Source of the DNA: Hydra vulgaris
Taxonomy: Eukaryota; Cnidaria; Hydrozoa; Anthoathecata; Hydridae
Assembly (NCBI RefSeq): GCF_038396675.1
Contig: NC_088920.1
Coordinates: 24,942,501 to 25,006,500, forward strand
DNA: 64,000 nt
Direction: 5' to 3'
Position numbers and translations under genes: made by a program. The notes under the pieces were generated by a model, which was given only the letters and a program-made list of their open reading frames with translations, did no database searches and was not told the origin of the DNA. Within the stretch, counting starts at the first letter, position 1. Each line of letters opens with the position of its first letter. Shown here piece after piece: positions 1,130 through 57,090 of the stretch.

Positions 1130-1440
1130 TTAACCTATTTTTTTCCTTTTTTTTACACATGGCTTAAGTTGCATATTCTCTGGGTTTGTCTTTTGGTAAT
1201 GAGATTTAAGAATACTTTTTAATCGCAATGTTGGGCAAGGAATTGATTGATAAGTAGTTTTGAGTTTGTTAAACTCCATGTGAATTGATTCTCCACCTTG
1301 TTCTCCATAAAACCCAAATCCTGCTCCCCATTTTTGCATAAACGGAATAGCATGATGTTCCAACATATGCAGCTTAGGTGTCACTGAAGCCTCTGGCCAA
1401 TTTAAGCGATAAAATTTCATCAAGTCGTTTATATTTTTTT
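1130..1440 (-). CDS. RAG1-like last exon: zinc His pair and catalytic Glu motif
   Basis: The exon starts after TTTTTTTAG and ends at a TAA. It contains PKLHMLEHH followed by GAGFGFYGEQGGESIHMEFN. The H-x4-H spacing and the Glu in a Gly-rich turn before an aromatic/basic helix match the RAG1 segment with H937, H942 and E962. A basic tail with VKKRKKIG ends the protein. Retention of this block in an otherwise damaged locus suggests the gene was under selection until recently. Confidence 0.8.
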
Positions 1441-2222
1441 CTAAAAAAAATTTAAAATTAAATTAACAAAAAAAAATAAAAAAATAAGTATACATAAACT
1501 TATTTTAAAGCATTTTATAGAGTGCGACTTACTTAAAAGAATTAAATCGTCTTGTGTAATTGTATTTTTCGAAGAAAATATTTTATAGCACTGGGCAAAT
1601 TTATCAAATAGTTGTTTATATTTACTGCTAATTTCAACTGCAAACTGATGCATGTTTGTTCCTGAATATCCTTCATCGTGAACAAGCTTCGGGATACAGT
1701 TGCATAGCTGAAGTATTGAAGATTTCTAAATAGCAAATTTATTTTACTAAAGATATATTTTTAGGTTTATTGATGTATTATTTGTTGTAATTGCATTAAA
1801 TTACAATTTTTCCAAAACTATATTAGTATTAAAAGTAAAAAAAAAAGATAATAAACTATTATTTATCAAGTAAAAACCTAGTTATCTGTCTTTTACGTAC
1901 TACGTCATGCTTTTTATTCATATTAATATCTAATTTAATTACTTTTAGCATTTTATGCACGTGGTTTCCTATAAAACTTTTTCCGTGGTAAGCTTGACGT
2001 TGTACTTTAAGCTTTTGTAGTATCGTCTCAATCATCTTAGTGCATGGTCTCTGACCCATTTCTGATGAATGTTTTTCAAATAGAGTATTATAAAGATCAA
2101 TCTAAAAAAAACTTAAAGTAGTATAACATAAACTAACAATAGTTGCATAGCAGTAATAATTATATTATTCATTTCATAAAAACAAAGACTAATCTGTGAA
2201 TGACAGGGTTGATATTTAAAAC

Positions 2223-2291
2223 ACTATTTTTTTAAACTCTGATCTGCATATGAAATTATTTCATATGCAGATCAGAGTTTAAAAAAACAGT
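2223..2291. repeat. Near-perfect palindrome in RAG1-like intron 7
   Basis: Two 34-nt arms (2223-2256 and 2258-2291) are reverse complements with one mismatch and a one-base centre. It lies in the intron between exons 7 and 8 and could form a cruciform or a transcript hairpin. Confidence 0.9.
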
Positions 2292-2623
2292 GATCAGAGA
2301 GAAAAAAACAAAAATTAAATCTGTATATGAAAAATTGCTTTCGTGCTTATGAAAAAATGCAAATTGCTTGACCACAAACTTGTAAAAATGTGTTCTAAAT
2401 ACACTCAAACTGATTGACGTTTAAGCTTTTTTCTACAATTAGTTTGCACTATAGCAAATGCTTTCAAAACTATTTAGTGCATACAAGTTAACACCTATAC
2501 AACTTCATTTCTTATTTCATTTACAAACACAAATTCTACTTTTATGACTACACATATCAATATGAAATAGATAATATAAAATCATAAAAATATCAAATCA
2601 ATGAAATCAATAAACTGTATAAC

Positions 2624-2950
2624 CTTTTTCGCTTTTTCACTATTAAGTAACTCAATTTCTTTAGAGTAGAGAGATTGAAAATTTTCTAAATTATCTGAAT
2701 TGTTAACAGCAGCTAACAAAATGACATCATTGATTTCTTGGATTTGATTATCAAAGTTAAGAATTTCAGTTTGAAGATTTAACAATTGTTTTTGTTTTGA
2801 TACAAAAACTGGATATTCTTCTGAAAAGTTAATTCTGCTTTTGACTGCTTCTGCAGCAATCATAATATCTAATTGGTGGACTTCTTCTTCAAACAAATTA
2901 AAAAAATTCAAATAAATACCAAGAGCCATATGGAGACTAGGTAAAGATAC
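2624..2950 (-). CDS. RAG1-like exon 7: segment around the second catalytic Asp
   Basis: This exon is bounded by TTTTAG and AAG|GTTATA and reads through without stops. It opens with VSLPSLHMALGIYLNFF, which aligns by eye with the RAG1 segment that carries D708 (LHCDIG in vertebrates). In this copy the aligned position is Ala. A charged helical region, including HQLD and several Glu/Lys stretches, follows. If the alignment is right, the second metal-binding Asp is absent or lies elsewhere in this branch of the family. Confidence 0.7.
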
Positions 2951-3356
2951 CTAAAAATATAAATTGAAAGTATATAATAATGTACTTTTATTAAGCTGCA
3001 CTGCAAAGTTATTACTACAAATAAAAACAACATTACTTGATCTAGTGGTATTTTCAAAATGGGCTTTGTGATGACATTATTGAAGTTTTTTACATTTTTC
3101 TTTAAACCTCCGTTTTCTATAAATTTTTCATGATCCAATAGTAGATCTTCTAAGGTACGATCTTTTATTTCAGAACTTTTCTGCTCACCAAGATTCATGT
3201 CACTTGCTGTTGCATAACAGAAAAGACAACAATGCCTCCCTTAAAATAAAATGGATAAGAAATAGTTAAAATTATTAATTATAAAAAAAAATTATAAAAA
3301 ATCATATTTAATAATCTATTAATAAATTTTTTTATTATTTTTACTATAATATACTA

Positions 3357-3363
<7 letters not shown>

Positions 3364-3442
<79 letters not shown>
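3364..3442. repeat. (AT)n microsatellite in RAG1-like intron
   Basis: About 80 bases of AT dinucleotide lie in the intron between exons 5 and 6 of the RAG1-like locus. Confidence 0.95.
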
Positions 3443-3447
<5 letters not shown>

Positions 3448-4904
3448 TGTAATACTATATGTAAATATTATAAACCATATTGTGGTTTTTCATTCAGCAA
3501 AAATGTCCCAACCATTTTGTTTGAAGTTCAATATATTTCGAATTAAGTAGCAAAAATTATGAAAATACTGATAATTTGTCATTAATAAAGATAGAAATCA
3601 CCTGATGCTCCTGAGATTCCATAGAGGGCACATAAAAACTGATAATCACCAAAAACAAATACTCTAATATTGTTATCCCTGTTGAGGTGTGTAGAAATGT
3701 TTAAGATAAATTTAATATAAATATCATTTGTAATATATTACATTTATTTTAAAGTATAATTTATTAAAACTAATTAGTACTAAATTATTAAAACTATTTA
3801 ATTCAACTAAAAATAAAGCACATTAGTTATTAAAAAGAAAAAGAATTTTTTTATCTTACTTATACTTCATTTCTTGAAGATCTTCTATTTGCTTTTCAAA
3901 CCTTGACATGGCTACTTTGACATTGATTCTGTAATCCTTCGCCTCGAAAATGCTAAAAACTATGGTGTTGTCTTTGCTATTTGGGTTTAGGGTATTTGCA
4001 ACCTGGTAAGTTATTTTAAAACTCCCCCCACTCCTTATCAGGAATAAATTTGTGGTAATGAAGTCTTTTACAACTACATAAAAATAAATTATTTAATAAT
4101 TAAATACATTTTAAAATAATAAATTATTTAGTAGGCAATGGTTTTCATTTTAACTAATAACAAATATACCCAAATGAAAAAAAAATTTACTTTATAAATT
4201 ATGTTTTAAAAAAATTTTCATTATTGGTTGTTAAAACTACCTTTCTAATTGATCAAGATGTCTTAAAATATGCATTGGTAAATTTTCAATATAACCCCAA
4301 GATGCATATTTTATTTCAAATGTTCCTTTCTCTTTTTTTTCAAAGGTAAATGGTGCATTTTCCACAATAAGGTCATCACCAGATAACTTTTCAGCAACTA
4401 TTCTTTGAGAAGAATGTGATGCTGTATTTATATTAAAGCTCTTCAGCCATCTTTAAACAAACAAAAAAAATTATATGTCATGTTATAAAAATTAGTATAG
4501 AATAATATTTATATAGAAAAATATTAACCTGGAAATTGTTTTAAGCTTTTCCCATGGTATGCACAGATCTGCTTTCATTGCTACCATGTTAGTGGCACTA
4601 ATTACTACTCTTTCAGTATTTAGGTTATCCAATATTAATCCTTTTGACTCTGCTTGAAAAGAATTAAGGAGTTTTGATGATTGACAACAAATTGCATCAT
4701 TGGATGTACCAGACACAACTTTCAATTGTCTTTTAATAGAAGCATTTCTGACTCTAACTGTTGTGGTCGATGCTTGATCACTGCTTACATAAGCTTTCGG
4801 AGCAAGTGAAAACAAAACTGGCTAAAAAAAAAGATTTATGAAAAGTAATACCTATTTAATTAATGGTTATTATAAATTAAGCTAAAATTAAAATATATTA
4901 TTAC

Positions 4905-5925
4905 TCTAGGACCTCCACTTTTAAACTCAACAACTTGTTTACCATCTTTTGCAATCTTTTTCTTAAGAACATGAAGTGCAGCATCTTCAACTATTCTTGG
5001 AATATTGTCATCCACTGTAAGATTGAAAATCTCAGAAATATTGTTGTTAAGTAATGTTGACAATGATGATGTTGATGATGTTACTGTAAAAGATGATGAA
5101 GCCAAATTAGAAGTAAATAATGATATAGATGGTGATAACAATGAGGCTGTTTGTGCTATTGATTTATCAATGCATATACTCTTATGATTAGTATATAAAT
5201 CATACTCTTTCATTACATTGAACTTTTTTTTACATATGCACTCAATAGTTAATATGTTTAAAAGAGAATTTGTTTTTACACTGGTCACCAAGTCTGTAGG
5301 TAAAATAGGCTCTTTACATTTTGGACAAAATGTTTCATTAAGTTTTTTTACCTTTATAGTTTCCACTAGACAGAAAAAACAAAATAAATGTTCACATCTT
5401 TTAAGAGTAACTGGTTGTTTTGGTACTTTACTACATAAATTACACTGACAAAGTGATAAATGAGGATTAAATTGGTTTTTTAATTCCTCAATATCTATAT
5501 CTGAGTCATGTGCTATCACAATGCTACTTTTTATTTTAGCAATCATTGAAAATGACCATACTTTTTTACTAATATCAGGGCGACCAATGAGCTTTTTATT
5601 GTGTTTAAATAATTTGGCTACATTTAGACCTTTACTAAGTTTTTTTACCTGCTGACAACAAAAGCATTCCTCACAATGAGGTTTCCAGTTCATACATAAA
5701 CAAAGTGTTGTTGATGTCATTCTTTTGATAACATTATTTATGGTATTATAACACTTATGGCAAATTGTATTTGAATAAACATTTTCTATATCATCTGACA
5801 GCATGACATGAAACACTTTTTCAATTTTATTTTTTTGGTTTGTTCCAATAGGGTATTTTTTTTTTCCCAACCAAATATCCACAGACCCGACAAAGAAGAT
5901 TCAAGTTCTTGTTATGAATCTCCAT
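4905..5925 (-). CDS. RAG1-like exon 1: N-terminal zinc and RING region
   Basis: The first recognised exon starts at an ATG that sits directly after a pyrimidine-rich AG, so it may be spliced to an untranslated leader. It encodes LCRVCG about residue 13. After a one-base frame change in an A10 run come YPI, CHKCY and WKPHCEECFCC, then a RING finger (CNLC, CEHLFCFFC, CPKC) and the stretch PTDLVTSVKTNSLLNILTIEC. The last stretch closely follows the region after the RING in vertebrate RAG1, including a Cys/His knuckle (CICKKK to HKSIC). In vertebrates this region is an E3 ubiquitin ligase and dimerisation module. The exon ends at AGA|GTAATA in phase 0. Confidence 0.85.
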
Positions 5926-6537
5926 CTAAGAAAAAAAAAAGTTTATGGATAAATATACTGATTAACCAACAAGCTTTAACCTCATTTATTAAATAGTGTT
6001 TACATTCATAATTTAAATTAAGCTAATAAATCAATAATAAACTGCATACAAAATAAAATACTTTATTTAAAATTAAAATAGAAAAACTTAGCAAACTTTT
6101 TTACAAAGGACAATTTACGTTAACTAAAATGGTGTCAATTTATGACAATCGTTGGATGTAAATTTTGAACAAGAAAAAAAATTGAGTGCGAATATTACTT
6201 ATAAGTAATAAAAAGATAAAAGATTCATATAAATAAAATAATAAAAAATTTTAAGTTTTACCGCTCAAAAAAAAAGAAAAAAGACTTATAAATCTGTAAA
6301 CAAATCAAAGAAAAAAATTTTTTTTAAGTAAATCTGCATCAGTCATAAAAAAATGTTCTCCTATTATTTTACTTACTTTTTAAAAAAATTAAGTTACCAA
6401 AACACTACCAATATTTCACAACTACTTATTCTGGTAGAAAATGATATAAAAAGCAAATAGTAATAAAAAAACTAGTTGTCAACTAAAAATTAACTTTGTT
6501 GCGAAGGCCCGAAGCCATTTTGAAAGTCCAAAAATTT
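5926..6537. other. AT-rich stretch upstream of the RAG1-like locus
   Basis: No exon, RAG2-like kelch repeat or terminal inverted repeat was recognised. A pyrimidine tract immediately 5' of the RAG1-like ATG (minus strand) resembles a splice acceptor, so a leader exon may lie here or further upstream. Confidence 0.4.
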
Positions 6538-7125
6538 TTATAATCCAATTGCGCTTGCGTACAATAACTTGTCGCTAATTAAGTAAGTTTGAACGACCGT
6601 GGTAGATGATTGACTAGAAACTAGCATAGATTTATTTTTTATTTTTTCTTGCAAAAGATTACAATCTTGATGTTTAGATTCAACATAGAAATTTATTTTA
6701 GTCTGTAACTTTTTGCCAATTCCATCGCAAATTTTGCGTTTTAAATTCTCTCTCATTAATAAAGGAGTATAATGGTTGTGTTGAAAAGGAGAAAAAAAAT
6801 TTAAGATACCTTTGTAACAAAAAAGGAGATAAAAAGATTTAATATTGTTTAATGAATTTATACGAGGTAAAATAGTATGGCTAAATAAACTTTTATACTT
6901 TGGTAGACCAAAATCTGGGTATAAACATTCTATTTTTTTGCTGCAAACACTTGACAATGCAAGAATACAAAGGAAAGAAGAACAGTTTTTATCATTACAA
7001 TTATTAACAGCTTCCTCTTGTACCAATTCTTCACGTTTTTTTCCTGTATCCAAAGAACTTAGGGAGACTGACAAAGGAAGAATGTTATCAAAACATAAAA
7101 AAGCTTGGATTATTATTAAAAACAT
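6538..7125 (-). CDS. Hypothetical secreted-type protein, single exon
   Basis: A 195-codon frame is open from ATG to TAA, unusually long for such AT-rich sequence. The first 22 residues are hydrophobic (MFLIIIQAFLCF...), like a signal peptide or anchor. A Cys-rich segment (CNDKNC, SVCSKKIEC) is followed by YPDFGLPKYKSLF and by FQHNHYTPLL. I do not recognise the family. It is on the same strand as the RAG1-like locus and 0.6 kb upstream, but no splice donor joins them. It could be a lineage-specific gene or part of a mobile element. Confidence 0.4.
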   Translation of the reverse strand: MFLIIIQAFLCFDNILPLSVSLSSLDTGKKREELVQEEAVNNCNDKNCSSFLCILALSSVCSKKIECLYPDFGLPKYKSLFSHTILPRINSLNNIKSFYLLFCYKGILNFFSPFQHNHYTPLLMRENLKRKICDGIGKKLQTKINFYVESKHQDCNLLQEKIKNKSMLVSSQSSTTVVQTYLISDKLLYASAIGL

Positions 7126-7416
7126 ATTGAAAAGTTAGGTGGTTATAATAAAAATCAGCGTTTAGGAAAAGTTTAATTGAGGTCAATAATCTTAAATCAT
7201 TAACTATACAGTCATTCCCAGATAGACATAAGGAGATAGAACTGTATAGACAGTTTCCAGTTGTTTGAGACCTAAGATATATGTAAAATATAACAATTAA
7301 ATAATTTTCATTAAATTTATCATGTGTATTTTTAAGTTTAATATTTATTAGTTTTATATTTATTACTTAAAAAAATCAATACATTGTATCAATAACAAAA
7401 CAATATAATAAAAATA

Positions 7417-7758
7417 TCAGTACCTTAAAAGAAGAAAATTGCCATTATGTTTTTCTTTGAAAATCTTTGGAATAAAGATTTCATAACTTTTAAGTGTCTC
7501 ATCTTTAAAAGAGTCAACAATATTGGCATCTTTAAAAGAACTGACATTTGTTTCCAACTTTTTTTTCCAGGAGATTAATTTTATTGTGTCATTTTGCAGC
7601 ATAGCTGTTTTGACTTTGTTATTAAGCTTCGTGATTTCAATTTCGAGCAACATTTTGAATATTTGGTAATTTGATAATTTTATAAGTTTATGATTCCATT
7701 TATTAATTTTGTAAATTTTATATATTTCAGGGTGTATGTCAAAGGCGACGTCCGACAA
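7417..7758 (-). CDS. Unidentified exon, Lys-rich and helical
   Basis: An open minus-strand stretch of about 113 codons ends in CTTTTAAG|GTACTGATA, a fair splice donor. It begins without an ATG, as an internal exon would. The product is rich in Lys, Ile and Asn and probably helical (KMLLEIEITKLNNKV). No domain is recognised. It could belong to the same transcription unit as the THAP-like fragment at 8877-8995. Confidence 0.3.
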   Translation of the reverse strand: MSDVAFDIHPEIYKIYKINKWNHKLIKLSNYQIFKMLLEIEITKLNNKVKTAMLQNDTIKLISWKKKLETNVSSFKDANIVDSFKDETLKSYEIFIPKIFKEKHNGNFLLLRY

Positions 7759-7839
7759 TTTTTTTTTATCAAATAAATCATATAAATAAAAAATAAATTG
7801 CGAAGACTAAAATTTAAAAAAAGATACACTATATAATCA

Positions 7840-8403
7840 TATAAAATTGGGGACGTCCATTGGTGTATTGTATTGTGTATTTGTTATTATAATTTGTTTC
7901 ACCTCCTGATAACCGTATAACAGAAGATTTTAATAAATATTTAACTTAGGGTGTCGAAAGGGACGTCCAAAATCTATTTTAAGTAAAGAGTTCTATTAAT
8001 AATTTTTTTAACAAATTAAATCCAAAATTAACAACAATTTTCATTTTATAGTGAAATAAAATTGGGAGCGTCAATTAATGTTTTTCAACAAATATTATTT
8101 ATCAAAAATTGTTTTGACTTCCGGTTCATAACTATTTTTATGTAAACTTTAAATCTCGCTTAAACAACTCGCTTTAAACAAGAACCCGTTACGCTATAAA
8201 TATAACTGACTATAATTTTAACCCGATTCAACAAAACTGCAATATTATTTATAATATAAAACAATATATAATTTGAAATGCAGTATATTATATTAGTAAC
8301 TTATTATTTGAGCTTTACCCTTTTTTTTCTCAGACCAAAATTATATTTCTGATATTTTTGGGTACGTCCACAGACGTACCAGACGTCCCCTAGATCCGCC
8401 CCT
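7840..8403. repeat. Dispersed repeat with GGACGTCC-type motifs
   Basis: Short blocks here (TTGGGGACGTCCATTG, GGGACGTCC, GGGTACGTCCACAGACGTACC, and an end reading CTAGATCCGCCCCTG) recur in diverged form at 19690-20170. The terminus, read on the minus strand as CAGGGGCGGATCTAG, resembles a hAT-type end. A related end, CAGGGGCAGATCCAGG, lies at about 16098. Confidence 0.5.
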
Positions 8404-8599
<196 letters not shown>

Positions 8600-8876
8600 G
8601 TTGTACTAACTAGTTGCATGTTGTTTCATATTTAATACCAAAATGAATACAAAAGCTGCCTTGGCTATTTGGTTTATAAATTAGACATAAGACTTGTCTA
8701 AATTATTTAACGAAGTCCACCAACGAGAAGGTAAGCCATAGGGCTTTGCACTCCGTTTCTAAAATGATATACATTTAACTATAACGATCATTTTAATTAC
8801 AATGCAATACCATTACATATATAACTCATGCATAATAATATAAAAGATGACTCGCCATGAAAATTATGTACTCACT

Positions 8877-8995
8877 TGTAAATTCTATATCTTCTGGAAA
8901 AAAGTATTTCTCACAAAAATAAACATTTCCTTTTGTTATTCTTTCTTGTAATAATCCATCTAATGGACGGTAAATAGCAAGAAAATCAATCAACT
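8877..8995 (-). pseudogene. THAP-like exon fragment
   Basis: The minus strand reads LIDFLAIYRPLDGLL then NVYFCEKYFFPEDIEFT, ending at ACAA|GTGAGT, a consensus donor. The CEKYFFPEDIE part resembles the C-terminal C..H half of a THAP zinc finger, with Tyr where His is normal. The acceptor side is poor (AAAAAG). This is probably a decayed exon of a THAP-type transposase or its host derivative. Confidence 0.35.
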
Positions 8996-9660
8996 TTTTT
9001 ATTATAGTGAATTTTTTTTGTTATAGTGAATCGTGCAATTTGAGATATATGATACTGGTATTGAATAATAGTAAAAGTATAATTAATATAGTTATTAGTG
9101 CAGCATATGATAATTATATTAGTCTATTTTAAAGATATTGTTACATTAAATTTTTTTTTTCTCCAAATAGGTATACCACCCATGGTGTTTGCTTTCGCTC
9201 CTATTTCCACCCCTCGTGTGTGCAACTTCTGCAAATGATTTACTGTTTAGAAGCCCCTTATAAATAATAAAAACCAAAAAAGTCTTGCACACCCAAGGAG
9301 TGAGAGTAGAAATTTCAATTTTGCTAAGTGTTATTTAAAATGGCTTCTTAGCTGTTTTTTTTTTAATTTTCTAACTTGGAATTGATAAAAGGCTAATCTA
9401 TGAAATAATGGGCTGATCTATGAAATAAAAAATACATTTTCAACTTTTTTTCACAACAAAGACTTATAAATCGCTTCTTAAATTTTCTTTGCTCTGTTAA
9501 GCATTCATTTTATTTATTAAATACTATATTATCTAGTATTTTTAAGTATGTTTACATATTCTGCACAGTTGTTTTTAAATTAAAGAGTTTACAAAAAACA
9601 ATTTAGTTTAATTCGGAACACATTATGTAAATAGATTCAATTCATGTTACTTTAATCTCT
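8996..9660. other. Non-coding stretch
   Basis: No gene is recognised. It holds a short duplicated phrase (GCTAATCTATGAAATAA and GCTGATCTATGAAATAA near 9390-9426) and poly-T runs. Confidence 0.4.
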
Positions 9661-9663
9661 CGT

Positions 9664-10488
9664 TCACACTATATAATAAACGCAAGTAGAAATATGATGA
9701 TTAGGGATATCCAAATCATGTTTCTTTGGGCATAAATCATCCACTAAATAAAGTTTTTGTTTTATATTAAAAATTACTTCGAAAGTGCTGTCTTTTGCAA
9801 TAGGTAGGGCATATAAACTTGTACATTTTACCTTCGCCGAAAGATATTTCATTCGGTAGTTGATGGGCATTTAACTTATCTCGAATATCCGACTCAATAA
9901 AAAGATAGGGAGGAACACCATTAAAATTATTTGAAATCGTAAAATTATTTAAAATTGTAAGTTGATGTGAGCAATAAGAACACTTTTTTTTAAGAAAAAA
10001 GTTCAAGACGACGTCTTCACCTACTTTTGAGAAGCAGAGATCATTAATAGTTCTAGTTTAACTTCGTATGCACAAATGATTATTGCAAACTACTTGTGAC
10101 TCAAAAGACTGAATTGGCTGAATGTCTTTTGAGTCACAAAATCCGAATGTACAGATCGAGTAATTTCCGTTTTCGTCTTGAGAAACACAAAGCTTGCAAA
10201 CGTCTAATACTTTTTACTTTATTCCAATCATTGGAATCAATAAACCCTATTATAGAAGCAATTTTTTTTTTTGATATCAGGGTTTTTCAAATTAATCAAT
10301 ATGTTCTTAGACAGCTTGCTTGAAATCCTAAGCGCGAGTAAAAAATAATCAATTGTACGTGTGTTCAATAACTTAACTGGCTTTTTAAAATTTGATTTAA
10401 TAAGCTTTCCTCCCCATTTAGGAATATTACTAAAAAACCACGAGTTTTCACTTCGTTTTTCGTTAACTTTCAATTTCTTTGGACTGAC
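9664..10488 (-). pseudogene. C-terminal part of the DDE_4/SWIM element: possible cysteine-protease-like domain
   Basis: The minus-strand frames read SPKKLKVNEKRSENSWFF, then IPKWGGKLIKS and LLNTRTIDYFLLAL, later KKKCSYCSHQ, NGVPPYLFIES and YLVDDLCPKK. The order WGG, N-T-C-T-I-D, a Cys pair, PPYLFIE and a VDD segment resembles a ubiquitin-hydrolase-like (papain-fold) domain I associate with cnidarian DDE_4/SWIM elements. If so, the catalytic Cys has become Arg (NTRTID). Joining across the Tc1/mariner insertion at 10491-11803 keeps the frame with the upstream DDE/SWIM part, apart from one TAA. Several frame shifts follow. The family assignment is tentative. Confidence 0.4.
10094..10139. repeat. 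Short hairpin
   Basis: Perfect 15-bp arms (TTGTGACTCAAAAGA and its complement) flank a 16-nt spacer. It sits inside the decayed C-terminal region of the DDE_4/SWIM element. Confidence 0.8.
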
Positions 10489-10490
10489 TA

Positions 10491-11803
10491 ACGGGTGATG
10501 CGGAAGTTATCGGACAAATCCTACTTTCATTATTTGAGCATAATAATTAGTTTTTGTGGTTTTATGTATAGACATAAACGTTCTATAAAATATAAACTTT
10601 ATTATTTGAAACACAATTATTTAAAATGAGGCTAAATGCAGCTGAACGAGAATCTTTTCGAAAGCGACTAAAAATATTTTTTGTAAATAAACCTAATGTA
10701 TAAAAAAAAAAATCGTAAACCATTTTGAAAAGAAAGAATTTGCTCGAAGTACAATATATGATAACCTAAAAAGACTTGAAACTATTCAATCGTTTTCTGA
10801 TAGAAAGCACCTTGGTCGTCCGACATCCTGGACTAGAAAAAAGAAAGCCGAATTAATGAGACTTGTCAACAATCGAAAAAGGGTCAGTCATAGAAAAATA
10901 GGTATTAAGTTCGGTGTAAATCAATCTAATATTGGTCGTCAGTTAAAAAAAATGAATATTAAATATAGAAAACGTGAAAAGACTCAAAAATACACTATAG
11001 AACAACAAATAAAGGCAAAGAAAAGCAGCAGGAAACTAGTTAACCAACTCTATAACACAAAATCGCTTCTAGTCATCGATGACGAAAAATACTTTTGTTT
11101 TTCAGGGGACAACATGCCTGGAAATTCTGGGTACTACACAAACAACAAAAAGACATGCCCAGAAAGTGTTCGTTTTATAGGAAAAGAATATTATAAGAAA
11201 TTTCCAAAAAAATTATTAATGGGGATAGCCATATCTGACCGTGGTATGTCTGAGCCATTCTTTCGCACTTCCAAGGCTGTAGCGATCAATTCATCAATCT
11301 ATATTAATGAATGTTTAGAAAAACGACTTCTTCCATTTATTCACAAGTATCATGGAGATTTAACTATTTATTTTGGCCAGATTTAGCAAGTTCTCATTAT
11401 TCTAAAGATTCTCTAAATTGGATGGACCAATATGTCTATTACGTTGATAAAGAATCCAATCCCCCAAATGTGCCTCAAGCACAACCAATTGAAAATTTTT
11501 GGGGACATTTGGCAGAGAAGGTTTACGAGGGAGATTGGCAAGCTTCAACAGAGCAAGTTTTAATTGATCGCATTAAACTAAAACTACAAGAAATTGATTT
11601 AAACTTTTTACAGTCGCATATGATAGGCGTCAGAGCAAAAATGAGATCAATTACAGATGGTGGTGTTTTTTCATATAAAAAATAATATATTTTTATTAAA
11701 AGATAAATGCTTTATTTAAAAAAAATATTATAGTAGTTTGTTTTTTATTTATAAATAAGTTATTGACGTTTTTATTTTGTCGGATAACTTCCGCATCACC
11801 CGT
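10491..11803 (+). mobile_element. Tc1/mariner-superfamily element, copy 1
   Basis: A 1313-bp element begins ACGGGTGATGCGGAAGTTAT and ends with its reverse complement. The inverted repeats are about 28 bp with one mismatch, and TA lies on each side (10489-10490 and 11804-11805). It has inserted into the minus-strand DDE_4/SWIM transposase frame and lies antisense to it. A second copy lies at 26683-27980 with nearly the same sequence, so the family was active fairly recently. Confidence 0.95.
10625..11685 (+). pseudogene. Tc1/mariner transposase (copy 1, frameshifted)
   Basis: From ATG at 10625 the frame reads MRLNAAERESFRKRLK, a helix-turn-helix region with FARSTIYDNL, then HLGRP. The catalytic part has LLVIDDEKYF (first Asp), YLFWPDLASSHYS (second Asp) and QPIENFWGHL (Glu). 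Counting from WPD to PIE gives 37 residues between, so this is a DD37E-type enzyme rather than the usual Tc1 DD34E. A premature stop or frame break lies after NKPNV, and a further frame break comes just before FWPD (about 11365-11380). Tc1/mariner transposases cut and paste DNA at TA sites. Confidence 0.9.
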
Positions 11804-11806
11804 TAC

Positions 11807-14436
11807 ATTCCGCTTATTAGACAGCAAACGCTTTTTATTCTTGATAGATTTATCTTCATCTGTGCTTGAATGATCATCAAATGACTCAGAAAAAGAAACT
11901 AAATTAATTTAAGCCTTCTTTTTCGAAAACTTTTTTAATTTTTTTGACTCATAAACTTCATCTTCCGAAGTTTCAATTTGTGTCAACATTGAAGTTTCTG
12001 GTTTAGCGTTATTAGTAAAAAAGAATGTTAGCAATCCAGCTGGATTCGGAAGCATCTCTAAGTACTTTCCACATGCTAAATAATAAATTACACTAGCGAT
12101 ATGCGCACAGCATCCTACAGTTCTCATGTCGGTCTTATAAGTACAGTACCATCCTTCGATTCCAGTTTCATCATTTGCATTAGGTAAATATTTCACGTAC
12201 ACTTTATAATTTGTAGACCCAGAATAACGAGATCTGATAATAAGAGAAAGAACTTTTGATTTCCCTATCGATTGAACAATTTCACATATTGCCAATTCAT
12301 ATTTTCCTTAATTGAAATGTTCAGAAATGTAGCTTAAGCATTGCCTAAGTTGATATGAGCCCAAATTGATGTTGTTTTTTATTATTTTAATGTTTACAAA
12401 CAAAATCTTTTTGTTTAGTTTTTTAGTTTTGACCAGCTTTTCCAAACTATTTTCTGAATGAAGCTTTACTTTCATGTTATTAATATTTTTTTGTTTGTCA
12501 TCCTTGTCTGAGTAAAGACGCTTGAAAAATCTATTAATATGGGATGCTGCAATTCTGTTGTCGGTGAGTGTGTGAGGCAAACATTTATTGCGCACTTTAT
12601 TTAAGGCTCTGGGGCCGCATTCTCATCTCTCCGTTAAGCTTAACGGAGCGTTAGTTAAAAAATTTTTCTAAATTACATTAATAAAAAATTTACTTAAAAT
12701 TATAGTTTTTTAAGCATAAATGTTTTATTTTGGTATAAGTTTTATTTTAACGAACTTATATATATTTTCGTCATTTCTATACTTAGAAATATTGTAATGA
12801 AATTTCAGACAAATGCTCCGTTAAGCCTAACGAAGAGATGAGAATACGGCCCCAGAAAGATGTTTTTAGCCATGAATTTGTGACTTCGATAACCAAACGA
12901 CACTTGGTAATCATTCTAGATTGATTAGCTTATAATGTTGTCAATTGTTTTTGACCTTTTTCTACACATGCAGGCATTTTTGGCTTCAAATTATAGGTAT
13001 TTTTTAATTTATCAAGACAGTCTCGAAAACCTCTATCAAATAATATAATGTCACCAGGATGAAGCAATTTTCTAAAATTTTAGTCGCCAGAAGTACATCA
13101 TTCACGATTGAAGCGTCAATTTTTGTTATCTCGTGAAGTCCAAATACATCGACAATTTTTCCATTTGATATAGAAAATAAAAAAAGTTTAACCAAATGTG
13201 TTTTTTTTTTTTTTTTTTGTACTCTGAATGTTTTTTCGTTGAAAATAGTTGTTGCTGCTCTTTTGACAATAACAGTAAGTTCCGTCGACAACTAATATCA
13301 ACTGAGATTTTTTAGCATTAAGTATTTCTTTGGCCAATTTGCTGTTATTTGCTAACCATTCACTCCTTGTTAAGTGACCTACACCTAAGTTATTAGGGAT
13401 GAAATTTTTGACAAAAGCATCTCTTACTTATTGCAAATATCGAGATACTTCAAAATCAGAGTCAATATCAAAATAATCAGCGACAGTGTATTGATCAAGG
13501 CCAGTTTTTAGTCAAAACAGAAAGATGGCTAGAACTTGAGATTTAGATCTACTACTGGTGTTTCTAAGTGAAATCAAATCTTCACTTAGTTCTTCAAATT
13601 GTTGTCTATTGAATCCAGTAGTTCGCTGGCAAATAGAATCAGGTAGTTTTGAAATATCAGAAAACTTTGAAAATAAACTGCTATGCTGAGCGTAATATTG
13701 AAACATCTCTAGTAAAGATTTAACTTCTGATGCATTTAGTTTCACATTCTTTTTAACAACATTCAGCTGATTTAAAACTTCATTATTTAATAATCCAACT
13801 TCGTTCAAATGCTCTCCGCAGCATCTTGATCCAGCAGGTATAAGAATTTTTTTTTGGACATAAGCGTCAATAATGCCTTGCCCTGAAAAGAATTTGAAAT
13901 TTTTTGAAGAGTTATTAATGTGACATACGAAAAAATAGCGATGAGAAGCAGTTGTTTGAGGTATATCCACCAAAATTGATGTACTTTTTTCGCTCATTCC
14001 TTCGCTTTTTTTAGCTCAACTAATTCTTTTTTAAACTCAACTAGAAAACTTTTTGAAGACTTAAGTGATATTTTTTCATTTTGTTCAATAATCGGTAGGC
14101 AAGCTGATATTTGATTTGTTTCAAGCGTTTCAGACAACTCAAGATTCCTTGTTTGAAAATCAAACGACTGAGTCTCTATAAATCTACTTAACGGTGAATT
14201 TATTTCATCATTCTCCTTTCTCCGCGCTCTTTCAATACATTCAGCTCAGCAATGTGTTTCAAGCTCAATGGCATTTTTGTTTTTGTTGATTGTTTCTCGT
14301 ATTTCATTGATAGGTAAATATTTCACCTCAACTTCGTTTCTAAAAATACTCTAGATATTCCACGCTTATTTTTTACTTTATCCAATCTTTTGAAACAACA
14401 TCCGCATCTATATTCTCTTAAAGTTATTTCACTCAT
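11807..14436 (-). pseudogene. DDE_4-type transposase with SWIM zinc finger
   Basis: The ATG at 14436 starts MSEITLREYRCGCCFKRL. Broken frames continue through CGEHLNEVG, TGFNRQQFEEL and then the catalytic part: LILVVDGTYCYCQ (first Asp), GDIILFDRGFRDC (second Asp) and EVTNSWLKTSF (Glu). After a MITE insertion the frame goes on as CLPHTLTDNRIAASHINRFF and GSYQLRQCLSYISEH. A SWIM-like finger (WYCTYK...VGCCAHIASV) follows, then an acidic tail. DDE_4 enzymes are transposases. At least three frame shifts and several stops make this a fossil. The frame after the SWIM part runs past one TAA into the region at 9664-10488 once the Tc1/mariner element is removed. Confidence 0.88.
12609..12855. mobile_element. 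MITE inside the DDE_4 frame
   Basis: A 247-bp block starts CTGGGGCCGCATTCTCATCT and ends with a near reverse complement. The arms are about 35 bp with a few mismatches. The left arm includes the perfect palindrome CTCCGTTAAGCTTAACGGAG. It interrupts the transposase exactly between KTSF and the RALNKVRNKCLPHT segment. No clear target-site duplication is visible. Confidence 0.85.
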
Positions 14437-16887: not shown

Positions 16888-19282
16888 AACATAATACACT
16901 ACCAAATGCATCATATATTGATCACATAGCTATCTCAAAAAACACTTCTCTTAGGTATTACAACTGTTTTGTTGCCCCCTTTTCACCTCAGAATATGAGT
17001 GATCATTTGCCAGTATCAATTGTAATTGAACTCATCGGAAGATCTCTCAAAGAGAATATTCACAAAATGACAGACAAAATTAGCATTCTAAATTATGCTT
17101 AGAATAATCAACGTTTTATACAATTATATAATGATTTCGTAAATAATAATATTAAAAATCTTAGCCTTACAAATAACAATTACGATAAAGAACTTATCAA
17201 AATCTATAATTTGATTACAAAAAGTGCATCTGAGGCTCTTAGCCAACACTTATCTGAGAAAAAACAATCATTATATTCGAAATCTTGGTAGACTCCCGAG
17301 TTAAATAGGAGTAAAAAAGTTCTTAGATTTCATTTTAAGAAATGGCGTGACACGGGTTTCGTAAAAGATTTAAGTTCGCACATTTTTAACCAATACCTAA
17401 TGGCACGAAAAAATTTCCGAAACGCTGTTAAGAAAGCACAAAACTATAACCTTTACAAAAAATACATAAAAATTGAGATGTTAAAAAATACCAATCCAAA
17501 AAACTTCTGGAATACTTTTAGAAATATACAGACTGATGCAAACTCAAAATTATTTACAAAAAATAATAAAAAGGACACGGAATCAATCACAAGAGAATTC
17601 GCCGATAGTTTCGAAAAACGGTTGAACACTAAATCTATAACGCATACCGCGACGAGTTTTCAAGTTCCACCTTGTACAAAATTTGACTTTGTAATAATAT
17701 CAGATGAAATTATAAGAACGGCTATCTCTTGCCTAAAATTAAACAAAACCAAAGATGCATTTGGAATATCTGCAGAACATTTAAAATATTTGTGTTGTGA
17801 AGCCCTAATAGAATGGCAAAAAAAATTCTTCACATTTTCTCTTAATCATGATCAAACGCCAAAGTCGACGTCTACATCACTTATAATACCACTTGCTAAA
17901 TCTTATAAAAAATCATTAACTGATCCAAATAACTACCGTGGTATCAGCATCATTCCAATCTTCACAAAACTAATTGAATATATAATCCTAATAATCTGTC
18001 CAGATCTAAAAGAAACTCATCCTCTTCAATTCGGTTTCACCAAAAATAGCTCAAACCTACACGCCAAATTTGTTATTAGTGAAACAATTAAACACTACAA
18101 CAACAACAACTCACCTGTTTATCTCTGTTCCCTCGATGCTGAAAAAGCTTTTGACAGCTGCAACTGGGACATTCTTTTTGAGAAACTGTTCAATAATGAA
18201 AAATTACCACTGTATATTGTTAATACAATATCGTCATTATACAGGGAAAGTAGTGCTTCTGTGTCTTATCTAGGTTGCAAATCATCTTTATTCTATCTAA
18301 CGCAAGGAGTGAGACAGGGATCGATTCTCTCGCCTCATTTGTACAATCTTTACATTCAAAACCTACTAGAAACCTTACAAAATGAAAGTGTCGTAGGAAC
18401 ATCAATAAATGGAAACTACACGGGTGTTGTAGCATATGCTGATGACATTATACTTCTTAGTTCCACCCTCTCTGGCCTACAAAAGCTAATTAATATCTGT
18501 AACATTTACACAAAAGAAAATTACATAAAATTGAATGCTGACAAAACCGAGTTTTTGTCACCGGAAAACATCAAATTAAAAAATGCACGATAACACTTAA
18601 CCACCAAAAAATAAAACTAGACAATAAACTTACTCATCTAGGCTTTATATGGGACACAAAATACTCACCAATTGCCTCACTTAATCGTTTAAACATTGAT
18701 AACCGAATATCCCATTTCCGGGCAGTAATACAGTCTTTAATTCTAGCTGGAATTCGTTTTGTTCACCCAAACTCTATTGTCCAGTTATATAAAACTTTAG
18801 CTGTTCCAACACTAACGTATGGTCTTGAGCTTTGCGACCATAAAGAAATGTTATTGCAAAAGCTTGATATAGTAGGAAGAATTGCACTAAAGTCACGACT
18901 AAACGTTTCAAAACATAGTAAAAGTTATATACATCCCCTATTTTGTATTGAAGATATGTCTATAATTACGCAACAAAATAAGATAAACTTATTTATTCGC
19001 CTGTTGAAAAATAAAATGACATTTGATATTCTTAAGTCGCAGTTGAACAACGAATCAGGTCAACGACCTTTTGTAGATAGCGTCAAGGCTCTGTACAGTA
19101 GTCATAAATTAAATATAGAGAAACTAATGCAACACAAAGAAAAAATAAAAATTACTGGTTTAAAAAATATAATTCCTGAAACGGATCTTAAAATCTTAAA
19201 ATGTGCAGTTGAGTACTGGAACTCAAAAGAACAAAGAACAATCCTCAAGGATGTTCTTGAAAATAAAATTCCTAGATCCTAG
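16888..19282 (+). pseudogene. 5'-truncated APE-type LINE (CR1/L2-like)
   Basis: The first part is the end of an APE endonuclease (SYIDHIAISKN, then MSDHLPVSI). A long open frame (17400-18593) then holds a reverse transcriptase: NYRGISIIPIFTKLIE, CSLDAEKAFDSCNWD, GVRQGSILSPHLYN and the catalytic VVAYADDIILLS box at about 18435. After a one-base frame shift near 18590 the thumb and C-terminal part continue (THLGFIWD, TLTYGLELCD) to the stop at 19282. The endonuclease N-terminus and any ORF1 are missing. Two stops lie before 17400. Clade is judged from motif style only; the copy moves by target-primed reverse transcription when intact. Confidence 0.88.
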
Positions 19283-25868: not shown

Positions 25869-26682
25869 ATTATTCCTTGTATACTATTATTTAACAACTT
25901 TAAGGTTTAATAATTCCATCTCTTGAATTATTGACCCATACAGGTTTCAAGTTACAGAGTACAGCACAAGGCCTCACAATATCATCAACATGACGTAACA
26001 TTGTTAGAGGAAAAACGATCTTTGAAATTCTGTAAGTTTTCATTCTATTTATGACTCGTTCAACGTGTATTCTTAAGTTAGCTATTTTTTTAGTTTTTTT
26101 ACATTCGAATGCAATCATTTGACTTTTGAGACGAGCACCTCGAGGAATTATCAAAGTACAAAATCTTAAGAAAAGTTCTTCCTGAATTTGAAATCCACAA
26201 TCTGCCATGACTTCATCTTCACGCTCTAACAAGTCATAAAAACCACTGTCTTTTGTTATAAAATTATCTAAACATCTTCCACGATAACAATCAGATAAAA
26301 AAAGTGATAAAACCACTCGGCGAAATTCCAAAAAGAAACTTAAACGAAATTGTGTTGTTTATAATCAGACCAAGTTGAAGCTTGTGCTAAGAGAGACTTG
26401 GGTCGTTTAATAAAAACTTCAGCACAATCAATAATCACACAACACTTGTAATATCCTGCATTCTTAAACACTCTAGGCAAATTTTCCCTGATGGTTTCAC
26501 GTGGAAGCCATAAAATAAGAGCACTACCTAACACACTGCTTATAAGTTTAATCCATGTGGTAAATGTGTCAGAAGAAGTAGTAGGAGAAATTCCGAATCG
26601 TTCTGCAAGGTCTTCATTAAGAATACCAAAACGAATTCGCGCAAGTGTTAAAAAAAATTTGTCACGATGAGAAAGTTTTCTA

Positions 26683-27980
26683 ACGGGTGATGCGGAAGTT
26701 ATCGGACAAATCCTAATTTCATTATTTGAGCATAATAATTAGTTTTTGTGGTTTTATGCGTAGGCATAAACGTTCTATAAAATATAAACTTTATTATTTG
26801 AAACACAATTATTTAAAATGAGGTTAAATGCAAATGAACGAGAATCTTTTCGAAAGAGACTAAAAATGTTTTTTGTAAATAAACCTAATATAAAAATAAA
26901 AAAAATCGTAAATCATTTTGAAAAGGAAGGATTTGCTCGAAGTACAATATATGATAACCTAAAAGACTTGAAACTGTTCAATCGTTTTCTGATAGAAAGC
27001 ACCTTGGTCGTCCGACATCCTAGACTAGAGAAAAGAAAGCCGAATTAACGAGACTTGTCAACAATCGAAAAGGGGTCAGTCAGAGAAAAATAGGTATTAA
27101 ATTCGGTGTAAATCAATCGACAATTGGTCGTCAGTTAAAAAAAATGAATATTAAATATAGAAAACGTGAAAAGACTCCAAAATACACTATAGAACAACAA
27201 ATAAAGGCAAAGAAAAGAAGCAGGAAACTAGTTAACTAACTCTATAACACAAAATCGCTTCTAGTCATCGATGACGAAAAATACTTATGTTTTGCAGGGG
27301 ACAACATGCCTGGAAATTCTGGATACTACACAAACAACAAAAAGACATGCCCAGAAAGTGTTCGTTTTATAGGAAAAGAATATTATAAGAAATTTCCAAA
27401 AAAATTATTAATGGGGATAGCCATATCTGACCGTGGTATGTTCGAGCCATTGTTTCGCACTTCCAAGGTTGTAGCGATCAATTCATCAATCTATATTAAT
27501 GAATGTTTAGAAAAACGACTTCTTCCATTTATTCACAAGTATCATGAAGACTAACTATTTATTTTGGCCAGATTTAGCAAGTTCTCATTATTCGAAAGAT
27601 TCTCTAAATTAGATGGACCATTATGTTTATTAAAGAATCCAATCCCCCAAATGTGCCTCAAGCACGACCAATTGAAAATTTTTGGGGACATTTGGCACAG
27701 ATAGTTTACGAGGGAGATTAGCAAGCTTCAACTGAGCAAGTTTTGATTGATCGCATTAAACTAAAACTACAAGAAATTGATTTTAACTTTTTACAGTCGC
27801 ATATGAAAGAAGCAAAATTGAGATCAATTGCAGATGGTGGTGTTTTTTCATATAAAAAATAATATATTTTTATTAAAAGATAAATGCTTTATTTAAAAAA
27901 AATATAATAGTAGTTTGTTTTTTATTTATAAATAAGTTATTGACGTTTTTATTTTGTCTGATAACTTCCGCATCACCCGT
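26683..27980 (+). mobile_element. Tc1/mariner-superfamily element, copy 2
   Basis: A 1298-bp relative of copy 1 with the same inverted repeats (ACGGGTGATGCGGAAGTTAT) and TA on each side (26681-26682 and 27981-27982). It is inserted antisense in the THAP/DDE_4 frame. Taking it out with one TA restores the host frame across LKRRFQSTKY-RKLSHRDKF. Confidence 0.95.
26818..27861 (+). pseudogene. Tc1/mariner transposase (copy 2, heavily broken)
   Basis: ATG at 26818 starts MRLNANERESFRKRLKMFFV. NIKIKKIVNHFEKEGFARST is intact where copy 1 is broken, but the frame fails after DNLKDLK. The middle part (27306-27554) matches copy 1 (MPGNSGYYTNNKKTC). A stop replaces the residues just before FWPDLASSHYS. 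Downstream, PIENFWGHL is kept but nonsense changes and small deletions surround it. It is more decayed than copy 1. Confidence 0.88.
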
Positions 27981-28829
27981 TATATTTAGTTGACTGAAAT
28001 CTGCGCTTTAATTTGCTAGTATTCTGAACAGATTTTGGTTCTCGCCAGTAACTAAGCTTTTGAAGAAATGGTATAAAAAGTAAGAAGATGACATTAAATA
28101 AAGCTATTGTAGATATTCCTGTATAAAAGTTCATTTTTTTGTCTATTTTGACTGTGTTGCATGAAAAAATCAACAATTTCTTAGTTTGATTAACTTGTTT
28201 TTGGTTTAGTTGTTTCAAGAATATATTCAAGAAATTAACTTTTTTAACAAGAGAATCAATCAAAGACGTTTTAGAATTACATCCTTCACACACATTTAGC
28301 AATGACTTGCTAGCATATGAATGTTCACGGCTTGGCGGTGGTAAATAAATTGTATTATCATTATTATTACTTAACTCATTGGTAATATTTTCATTTGTAT
28401 TATTATTCGTGTCATTACATTCTGTGCTAATACTTTTCAAAATTAAAAAGTTCGATTTTGGACAACGATTATATAAACTCTTTCTTGGTTTAATGTTAGT
28501 AGAATTATATCCCATATTTAAAGTAGGATCTGGATTAGCAATGGTAGGTGTTCCATCTACAAAATACATCGAACAAACACGATCACGGTCGCATGGATTC
28601 CATTTTTTCTTATTTTTACCTTCTCTTTTTAATAAAATTTTCCACTCTTCTCGTTCTCTAGAACTTTTTAAAGAACTTGGAAAACAGTAAAGATTGAAAG
28701 GACGATTACAACCAAAATTATTACTTTTTCAAACCTTCATGAACATTACATTCTTGTTTTTTCCTCTAAAAAAGTTTATAATGGCTATTCGAACACCCAA
28801 TTACTGCACAGTTACCTCTGTTACCCATC

Positions 28830-37582: not shown

Positions 37583-38497
37583 TTAGTTATATGTGTGTAA
37601 ACTTATGTCTTCGTTGTTCGGATTTTGTAAGTTTTGTGCTGAAGTAGCTGAACGTTTCTTGTCAGATGCGGGGCGTTGCTTCTCAGACTGTACTCTTGTG
37701 CAATAAAAATGCCGAAAAAAATATACCAGGGGGTTAACTAGGTGGTATAAGTTTAAGAGCAATGTAGTGAATGGATGGGCAAAGGTTTTAAATGTTAAGC
37801 CGTATGCATTTGGAAAAATGCAGGAAAAAAAAGAAAGTCCAATTAAAAAGCAAAACCCGCTATTTTTGACGTCGTTATTGTTATTAAAGAGAACATCTCT
37901 AGTTGTAATTTTTCGAATTATTAGCAATGCGGCTAACGTTAGATAAAAAAATAATACCAGCGAGGAACCAATAAGCAGAACGTAACCCAAGTATACATAA
38001 CGAAACTCCTGCTTTATTAAATGTTTTATGACAGTGGCAAATATTAAAGCTGTACCCCATGGTACTAAGATTAGTGACAGCTTGCATTTAGACAAATTAA
38101 ATACGTAAAAATACGTTGGAAAAAGTACGCCAATAATTCTCTCAATTGCCATACTCAAAACATTGACTTGAGAAGAAAATAAAAAAAACAGAAACAAACC
38201 CTCCAATATATCGACTTTTAATTCTGTTTTAGGAAAAACATTATTCAATGAATGTTTCACAACCAAAACTTGTTTTATTAACATTATTGCTCCGGATAGC
38301 ATGTCGGCAATTGCTATATTAAGAAGAAATTGCTCAAAGCGGTTGCTCGTATTACCCTTTTTAATGGTTAAAAATATTGTTAAAGCGTTTAATATAATGA
38401 CCAAAGCATCAATAACCAAAGCGGAAATAACCCAGTACAGCATGTTCGATGCGATTTCTTTTAGAACAACTTGCAATAAAACACAATAAAAAAACAC
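37583..38497 (-). CDS. Rhodopsin-family G-protein-coupled receptor
   Basis: A 304-residue intronless frame with seven hydrophobic segments at about 21-44, 55-78, 97-120, 140-162, 169-194, 213-236 and 241-262. Class A marks are the LN pair in TM1, LNIAIAD in TM2, ERI at the end of TM3 (DRY position), a Pro in TM6 and NPLVY in TM7. The Cys that usually starts TM3 and forms the extracellular disulfide is not seen, and the extracellular N-terminus is very short. The second Met (residue 19) is an equally good start. The protein would be a plasma-membrane receptor; its ligand cannot be told. Many hydrozoan GPCR genes are single-exon. Confidence 0.88.
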   Translation of the reverse strand: MFFYCVLLQVVLKEIASNMLYWVISALVIDALVIILNALTIFLTIKKGNTSNRFEQFLLNIAIADMLSGAIMLIKQVLVVKHSLNNVFPKTELKVDILEGLFLFFLFSSQVNVLSMAIERIIGVLFPTYFYVFNLSKCKLSLILVPWGTALIFATVIKHLIKQEFRYVYLGYVLLIGSSLVLFFYLTLAALLIIRKITTRDVLFNNNNDVKNSGFCFLIGLSFFSCIFPNAYGLTFKTFAHPFTTLLLNLYHLVNPLVYFFRHFYCTRVQSEKQRPASDKKRSATSAQNLQNPNNEDISLHTYN

Positions 38498-38499
38498 AC

Positions 38500-40030
38500 A
38501 ACAACAGAGTGAAAAGAATGCTCTGTAGAGAAGATTCTTTTTTATCTCAATTTAAAACAAAGAACGGTGCCAAATTAACGATGTTTTCTTTCTTTGGAAT
38601 GTTCAAAACGTGCATTTTTTTTGTTAAATGTATTTTGGCGAGTTTTTGTTTTGAAAAAGTAGGTTCCTTTCTTTGGAATGTTAGAAACGCTCGAGCTTTT
38701 TTTTCATTATTAATAAATTTTCATAAACTTAACGTTATTTTTATAACGATATTAATTTATATAGAGAAGTTACTGTTTTGAAAAATGCACAATGGAAAAC
38801 ATTGAAATACGTTAAATACCCTACGCACAATGAGAAAAAAAATAATAATTATTCGAACTTTTTAAAAAAGATAATGAACAAATTTTTAAATGGTTTTTTC
38901 AACTTAGTTACGAAAAGTAAAAAAATTTCTTGCCTTTACTCGCTTTTTTATTTTAGTATATTTCTTATCTTTAATTAATCAACATTATTTTTTTGTGTTT
39001 CAGATAGCTAACTTCCAGGCAGAGCAAACTCCAAACATTTGTATATTTATACTCATGTCAAATAATGAAGCTTTGTAGAAAACTGATTGGAGGCTGGGAA
39101 CGAAAATGAATGATTGGAGGCTGGAAACGAAAGCCCTTTGACTTCATCTCCCCTACCCCAAACATGAGGGGCAACAAGTTGATAAAACACTTTTTGTACT
39201 AATCTTAACTAGACTTATATTCATCATTAAATTTTAAGTTTCATAGTATTATCTCTCAGCATTCAAATTATGACCATATAAAGTTTAAATATTCATCAAT
39301 TTGAGGGGGTTACAAACTCTATTAAGTTATTTTTATACATTGAACATTTTTTTTAAGATAAGTTACAGAGCGAAATTTCGAGAAGAAATAAGAAGAAACG
39401 AGAAAAATAAAGTAAAAGAGAAATAGAAAAAATGGAAGATTTAACAAAAAAATATTTTATTACAAAATGACGTCAACAGCTAAACGGCCCAAAAAAAAAT
39501 GAAAACAGTCGCTTTATCAAAAGCTGTAAACGAGTAAATATTAAACGCTACTGCAGTTTCACCCACCTTTTCCTCTCTTTTTTTTTATGATTGAAATAGA
39601 GAATTTTATCCTGATTTAAAATTTTATTGTCTAAATAAAAATATTTAAATAATTGTTTTTTCTTTATTTTTGTATTTTGTTATATCAACCAAAAAAAAAG
39701 AGTAAAACGAATAAACAAATAAAAAAACAATAATATAAATAATTTTAATTAAACATTAAAAAAGGTATTTTTTTAAATTCTCCTATTATAAAAAATTTTA
39801 GTCAAACCAACGCGACGATTTGTTAAAAAAAAAAATTAATTACAACTAATAAAGAGTTAGGCAAAAATAAATGTTCATATTGTAAAAACGACAACTTATA
39901 TTTACGTCATCGCCAATCTCCCTAGGGCATAATTATGTACAAAAAAGCTCGTGTCACATTTACACTATTAATTTCAATGTCGCCGCTAATTTAAAATAGC
40001 TTATTTAAATAAGCTATATTTAAATAATTC
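38500..40030. other. Non-coding stretch with a short tandem duplication
   Basis: A phrase of about 27 bases with GATTGGAGGCTGG is repeated twice near 39085-39140. Plus-strand ORFs at 38449-38978 are low-complexity, have no domain and overlap the GPCR start. Nothing else is supported. Confidence 0.4.
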
Positions 40031-46120: not shown

Positions 46121-46980
46121 TTAGTAGGTCTAAAATAAAGCAGCGTAAGTAAAACTTAAGTTGTAGAAGTGTATAAGTATTTAGCTAAGTAATTACAAAG
46201 GTCTTTTGAAAAAAAACATTCTTTTTATATATTAAATGAGTTTTGTTTTAGACTTAACGTTTTAGTTACTATTTAAAAAAACAATGGTTTTCCACTTTGC
46301 ATTTCTTATTGTTCAGTGATGCGTGTTAAAAACTTATTTAATTGTAAAGTTCATTCGTTTAGCTTTCTGTTTTGTTTTTAAAGAGATTTACTATACTAAT
46401 TTTAATTAGTTGTCAATCCGAATTTTAATTAGTTGCCATCCAAATTTTTTTCAAAAAAATGTGCGGTCGCTGAAAAAAGATTTTTGTTAAAACGGCTGGT
46501 AGCGAAAAGAGTTAATTTAAAAAATGCAATTAAAAAGAGTGTCACAACATCTAGTCAATAAATAAATAAATTGCTATTTCATATTAATTGAAATGAAATT
46601 TTAGGATCTTTTGACCTCTATCTTTTTTTCGACAAGCTTTTGCATACTTTAAATACTCGGTTTGCTAATGTTAAATAACAAGACGTCATCGACGCTCTTT
46701 ACCGCTTCTTTTTTTGGTTATTAAAATCAAAAAATTTTTTCTTTGGTTTTTACGGAAGCTTATCGAAGTATTTGATTGGCGAAAATTTTGAAGTAATTAA
46801 TTTGGCTAAAATTCTTTTAAAATGAAAAATACTTTTCAGTGTAATAAGCGATTTTGGATAAAGTTTTACAAATAAATAAAGTTATAAGAACTACATTTTA
46901 ACAAGTAATATAAAAGTTGTATATAAAAATACAATATGTAAATAGTAAAAATTATCAAGTGATTGCATTTTTTTAGGAAA

Positions 46981-52586: not shown

Positions 52587-52845
52587 ACAGTTCATTCCTA
52601 TTGACGTCACTCTTGCATCAGCTGTCAAACAGTTCATTCCTATTAGCGTCACTCTTGCATCAGCTGTCAAACAGTTCATTTCTATTGACGTCACTCTTGC
52701 ATCAGCTGTCAAACAGTTCATTCCTATTAGCGTCACTCTTGCATCAGCTATCAAACAGTTCATTTTTATTGACGTCACTCTTCCATCAGCTGTCAAACAG
52801 TTCATTCCTATTGACGTCACTTGCATCAGCTGTCATAACGGAATA
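52587..52845. repeat. 42-bp minisatellite, about six units
   Basis: Units contain CAGTTCATT, TGACGTCAC or TAGCGTCAC, then CTTGCATCAGCTGTCAA. The first four units alternate between the GACGTC and AGCGTC forms, hinting at a two-unit higher-order repeat. As 42 is a multiple of three, all frames stay open and give repetitive peptides on both strands; these are not genes. Most units hold a full TGACGTCA palindrome (a CRE-type site) and the E-box-like CAGCTG. Confidence 0.93.

Positions 52846-54854: not shown

Positions 54855-57090
<2,236 letters not shown>

Follow-up and report, generated by a model that had tools for sequence, protein, structure and literature searches.

Relatives of RAG1 among described transposons

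Chapaev is one of the four clades of the Transib superfamily (Kapitonov & Koonin 2015, PMC4411706; here and below, papers are cited for the passages that concern the elements named). According to the same source, the Chapa domain corresponds to a truncated RAG1 N-terminal part and is followed by a RING in two Chapaev subgroups; Hydra magnipapillata is named in the legend of its tree, the cited passages not saying which sequences of this species are RING-bearing Chapaevs. DUF1280 proteins have been described as putative Chapaev transposases, RAG1 and DUF1280 forming one clade of a tree of ribonuclease H-like (RNase H-like) proteins (Majorek 2014, PMC3985635), and the wider group carries C(2)C and H(3-4)H motifs, mostly CA..TG ends, and duplications of 2-5 bp (a 2025 paper, PMC12730594). 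Genuine RAG-like (RAGL) pairs have been reported in Cnidaria from corals and Aurelia (PMC7204232) and from Fungia (PMC9435367). Here we analysed a stretch of 64,000 nucleotides of the Hydra vulgaris genome (contig NC_088920.1, positions 24,942,501 to 25,006,500; hereafter “the window”), in which a single minus-strand locus at 5925-1130 had been described in an earlier note as a full-length RAG1-like gene, possibly a host gene left by an old RAG transposon. The locus is very probably a copy, now defective, of a cut-and-paste DNA transposon that has spread recently in Hydra vulgaris and is of the RING-bearing Chapaev type, with Chapa and RING ahead of a DUF1280 core. Since Chapaevs with Chapa and RING are known from the papers above, its layout is of an already described kind.

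A RAG1-type front end on a DUF1280 core

The locus comprises ten exons and nine introns, all with GT donors and AG acceptors (boundaries chosen by us). The joined exons total 3008 nt with no open translation through them; joined at the protein level, they give a product of 1002 residues. Each of the ten exons recurs, with identical junctions, in one or more of the close Hydra vulgaris gene models (individual isoforms of these models omit exons or parts of exons), and the gene is therefore far beyond chance. One ten-exon locus with a total near 1000 codons, as claimed in the earlier note, was thereby upheld, whereas its statement that intron phases agree throughout held for the splice sites, which fit, but not inside exons 1 and 4, where the frame is lost. 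Intron 7 holds a 71-base near-perfect palindrome (96%) at 2222-2292, perhaps a small hairpin element.

Exon 1 (4905-5925, like all ten on the minus strand) encodes a Chapa/RAG1 importin-binding-type zinc region, a RING finger and a linker, as judged by Pfam and by a match to mouse RAG1. Within residues 1-340 of the product, PF12560 (RAG1 importin binding) scored 31.9 bits (cut-off 23.3) and PF00097 (C3HC4 RING) 30.7 bits (cut-off 21). The best PDB match of this N-terminal part was mouse RAG1 (50.1 bits, bias 14.6, E = 2.6e-12), which covered residues 22-247 and thereby the block that follows the RING; the BRCA1 RING came next (E = 3.1e-10), the RING alone matching BRCA1 too. The presence of a Chapa domain was judged from PF12560 together with the RAG1 match. 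A RAG1 N-terminal region, a RING and the same downstream block had been noticed from the letters of the window, and these matches bear that out. Such a front end belongs to RAG1, yet it is not exclusive to RAG1: Chapa followed by RING, the order found here, also characterizes two Chapaev subgroups (PMC4411706). The occurrence of this front end on a Chapaev core shows that the combination of RAG1 N-terminal region and RING is not diagnostic of RAG1.

The core (∼660 residues, 341-1002) begins in exon 2 (4529-4821), which also carries part of the linker, and runs through exon 3 (4241-4450) and exon 4 (3860-4073) to exon 10. Its sole Pfam match up to E = 1 was DUF1280, at 23.3 bits in the window copy, where the region of the first conserved Asp is missing; the near-identical relative P0003 (gene model LOC136088017) reached 47.9 bits, and all five relatives scanned exceeded the cut-off of 25 (the others being P0015, 61.7; P0028, 51.4; P0042, 68.9; and P0038, 70.2 bits). 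A RAG1 core was not recognizable by sequence in Pfam up to that limit, nor was any RAG1 chain found among PDB matches at E up to 10, whether the query was the single sequence or a 37-row core profile. A phmmer search with a core fragment of mouse RAG1, run as a positive control, retrieved the RAG1L of entry 6b40 at 2e-52, so a RAG1L-close relative would have been detected; the control also missed HzTransib at E up to 0.001, and the core's missing match is for that reason compatible with a Transib-grade relation. Aligned with the mouse RAG1 fragment, the core gave an hhalign probability of 28. Of the two profile matches that the earlier note had proposed to look for in the spliced product, the RAG1 N-terminal one was thus obtained, but the core returned DUF1280 only and no RAG1.

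Predicted fold and conserved residues

The predicted fold of the P0003 core is that of a RAG1/Transib-type transposase. The RAG1 core claimed for this locus therefore stands as the predicted fold of a near-identical relative but not as sequence, which is DUF1280. From the sequence matches and this predicted fold, a single gene appears to join a RAG1 N-terminal region, a RING and a RAG1/Transib-type core. Conservation among the non-gap rows of the 37-row alignment (P0003 numbering) was complete for D109 (31/31), D179 (35/35), E538 (33/33), C198 and C201 (36/36) and H517 (34/34), and nearly so for H512 (34/35). Exon 5 (3602-3678) carries an FGDY motif with the second conserved Asp (D179), exon 6 (3037-3239) the C-x2-C motif, exon 7 (2624-2950) an LPSLHMALG motif and long helices, and exon 8 (1943-2101) the motif RQAYHGKSFIGNHVHKML; exon 9 (1533-1725) is helical, and exon 10 (1130-1440) closes the core with H-x4-H, a GEQGGES motif containing E538, and the stop codon. 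E538 pairs with E962 of RAG1 in the hhalign alignment, and the spacing from D179 to C198 in P0003 (19 residues) equals that from D708 to C727 in mouse RAG1. We take mouse RAG1 D708 and E962 to be catalytic residues. These cysteine and histidine pairs lie between the second D and the last E, as the definition of Chapaev in PMC12730594 has it for C(2)C and H(3-4)H.

By its fold as modeled, the enzyme should work in the manner of a RAG1/Transib-type transposase. The core of intact relatives probably adopts an RNase H fold like that of RAG1 and Transib, in which D109, D179 and E538 (P0003 numbering) would make up a D-D-E active site and C-x2-C and H-x4-H a zinc site. The transposase would bind the terminal repeats of its element and then cut and rejoin DNA, and the Chapa and RING part would, by analogy with what is reported for RAG1, dimerize or serve as a ubiquitin ligase.

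Among described systems, N-RAG-TP of Aplysia, of which Panchin and Moroz (2008) are said to be the authors, invites comparison by description. It is a mobile element with RAG1 N-terminal-like sequence (PMC8355894), whereas in the window gene the RAG1 N-terminal-like part is fused to a DUF1280 core. In Transib (HzTransib), only the core domain is identifiable (PMC4411706); the window gene has Chapa and RING besides. Vertebrate RAG1 and invertebrate RAG1L (ProtoRAG) resemble it in the sequence of the N-terminal importin-binding-type region and RING, in the core fold predicted for its relative, and in a common pattern of C-x2-C, H-x4-H and D-D-E, but differ in that the window core has no RAG1 sequence match in the PDB, and that no ends like recombination signal sequences and no RAG2-like partner were found in the available flanks. 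Closest are the Chapaevs with Chapa and RING, which share the Chapa zinc domain, the RING and the DUF1280-type core and live in animal hosts, Hydra appearing in the tree legend of PMC4411706. From these the window copy differs in being broken, and its putative assignment comes from the protein, not from termini or a target-site duplication.

Loss of frame in the window copy

In exon 1 the frame changes where ten A follow one another (5856-5865; T on the plus strand), a run that splits MEIHNKNLNLLCRVCGYLVG from KKKYPIGTNQ. In the Hydra proteins P0004 and P0005 the protein is continuous across this position, and the change could be either a real indel or a homopolymer assembly error. In exon 4 the frame is lost at ∼4030/4031: the window reads KE-WGGSFKI at a place where all five nearest Hydra proteins (P0001 to P0005) read KEIQIKIGGDYGGGSFKM. 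Close relatives encode about ten extra residues here, from which we infer, by codon count, a deficit of ∼29 bases. The missing stretch includes the first conserved Asp (D109 of P0003, retained in all 31 non-gap rows), whose codon is absent from the window, and assembly error is a harder explanation for this change than for that in exon 1. As assembled, the window copy is broken, and because the frame is lost twice and the first Asp is missing, it should be inactive. The intact open reading frame of a domesticated host gene is accordingly not what is found here, even if the loss in exon 1 may be an assembly error.

Relatives and spread

The three best protein matches of the window gene, all of them Hydra vulgaris gene models, were 90-98% identical to it, and the next two 85% and 66%. 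It differs from P0001 (LOC136085802) by 6 substitutions in 971 alignment columns and from P0003 by 4 in 590. The proteins of both loci are 99% identical to the window outside gaps and are encoded on separate chromosome-size contigs (52.6 and 87.0 Mb), which favors recent spread. A search with the core, in which 7,995 candidates were scored, recovered at least 48 proteins (a lower bound), including 23 from Hydra vulgaris with 22 distinct LOC names, 5 from Branchiostoma, 3 from Hydractinia, 3 from sea urchins, 2 from Holothuria and 1 each from Pocillopora and Antedon. PF06918 (DUF1280) was found in 36 of the 48 core matches listed, PF12560 in addition in 8, and PF12940 (RAG1 family) in none; no RAG1, RAG1L or Transib sequence was among the matches of the protein searches. 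In an unrooted tree of 31 rows, built without RAG1 or Transib rows, the window grouped with P0001 and P0003 (100/100 support; end branch of 0.0032) and then with P0007, all from Hydra. Members of the family occur in cnidarians, echinoderms and amphioxus, and some clusters consist of Hydra alone; the family is multicopy and dispersed, as the LOC names and the near-identical proteins at two loci attest. DUF1280 was counted 13 and 31 times in two Hydra genomes, versus 0 to 4 times in five other cnidarians (Hydra viridissima genome paper, PMC7642931; column order as in its legend).

Near-identical loci on two contigs and the presence of relatives in several animal phyla argue for a mobile family rather than an old single host gene. 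A RAGL gene that belongs to the RAG1/RAG1L clade and became domesticated after losing RAG2 and its terminal repeats would account for the front end of the locus, but we consider this scarcely credible: the core has no RAG1 match in the PDB at E up to 10, whereas the control found RAG1L there, the frame is lost twice, and near-identical proteins are encoded on two other contigs. The origin as a host gene suggested in the earlier note is contradicted by the last two of these results. On its sequence, the locus is not a member of RAG1/RAG1L and is not a credible host gene.

Termini, flanks and neighboring elements

Several points weigh against assignment to a Chapaev-type transposon. In a search for 5′-CA..TG-3′ pairs, neither terminal inverted repeats nor a target-site duplication could be shown: the best pair matched at 18/24 positions (shuffle mean best, 17.9; highest, 20; 50 shuffles), and 13 candidate pairs reached ≥17/24 (shuffle mean, 6.2; highest, 13). 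The 3′ terminus may lie beyond the window, which ends 1,129 bases past the stop codon. The DUF1280 score of the window copy is just below the cut-off, the fold was predicted for P0003 only and not for the window's own protein, and none of the 48 core matches listed is named Chapaev, so that the name rests on papers. It is also worth noting that the window could be another version of the P0001 or P0003 locus and not a third copy.

The failure to find termini at this locus would also suit a Chapaev-derived Hydra gene family that spread by ordinary gene duplication and is used by the host, the window holding a pseudogene copy, and the large number of Hydra gene models, for some of which isoforms are predicted, is in its favor. 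This we judge quite improbable, as the family, with its Hydra-only clusters, extends from cnidarians to echinoderms and amphioxus, near-identical proteins lie on different chromosome-size contigs, and other mobile elements are present in the window. A defective Chapaev-type transposon copy is thus retained as the explanation.

A six-frame Pfam scan of 1-1129 and 5926-10400 gave no match at E up to 0.1, and in particular no RAG2-like domain, the downstream side amounting to 1,129 bases only. RAG2L is convergent in known RAGL elements (PMC7204232), and because a convergent RAG2L sits downstream, where the window holds so little, such a partner would be mostly outside it. Upstream of the Chapaev gene and on the same strand (6538-7806, minus strand) are several open stretches, which may belong to the element as its second gene or else be the remains of a separate gene in decay; one of them contains the motif TGNCLYSSIS and matches otubain very weakly (E = 0.086).

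Elsewhere in the window, two copies of one element (10488-11809 and 26680-27986) are 94.6% identical and have 30-base inverted ends; the first contains an open reading frame (10697-11386) that resembles a transposase of the Tc1/IS630 type, the Pfam match being weak (E = 0.048). A long open reading frame at 54708-55949 with DDE_1 (E = 1.9e-20) looks like a pogo-type transposase, and a reverse transcriptase frame at 17292-18593 (RVT_1, E = 1.4e-30) probably belongs to a LINE-type (long interspersed nuclear) element. The 431-residue frame at 46963-48258 has a BTB domain (E = 5.7e-16) and is likely an ordinary host gene, while a 322-residue frame on the minus strand (37583-38551) resembles, by eye, a seven-helix receptor. 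A tandem repeat of ∼84 bases lies within an open reading frame at 52586-52835.

Implications for RAG1 and for Hydra

Recognition of this locus as a Chapaev-type element removes a tempting false lead, namely that Hydra has kept RAG1 as a host gene. The predicted structure of its relative also supports a kinship already proposed in the literature, between the cores of Chapaev, Transib and RAG1, whose sequences have little in common. The near-identical copies make Hydra a place for testing RAG2-free transposition. More tentatively, and at somewhat less than even chance, the transposon may have been active very recently or be active still, with a transposase that has the whole RAG1 layout (Chapa, RING and a RAG1-fold core) and works without RAG2. 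If so, intact sister copies would offer a living test bed for the pre-immune roles of the N-terminal and RING parts of RAG1.
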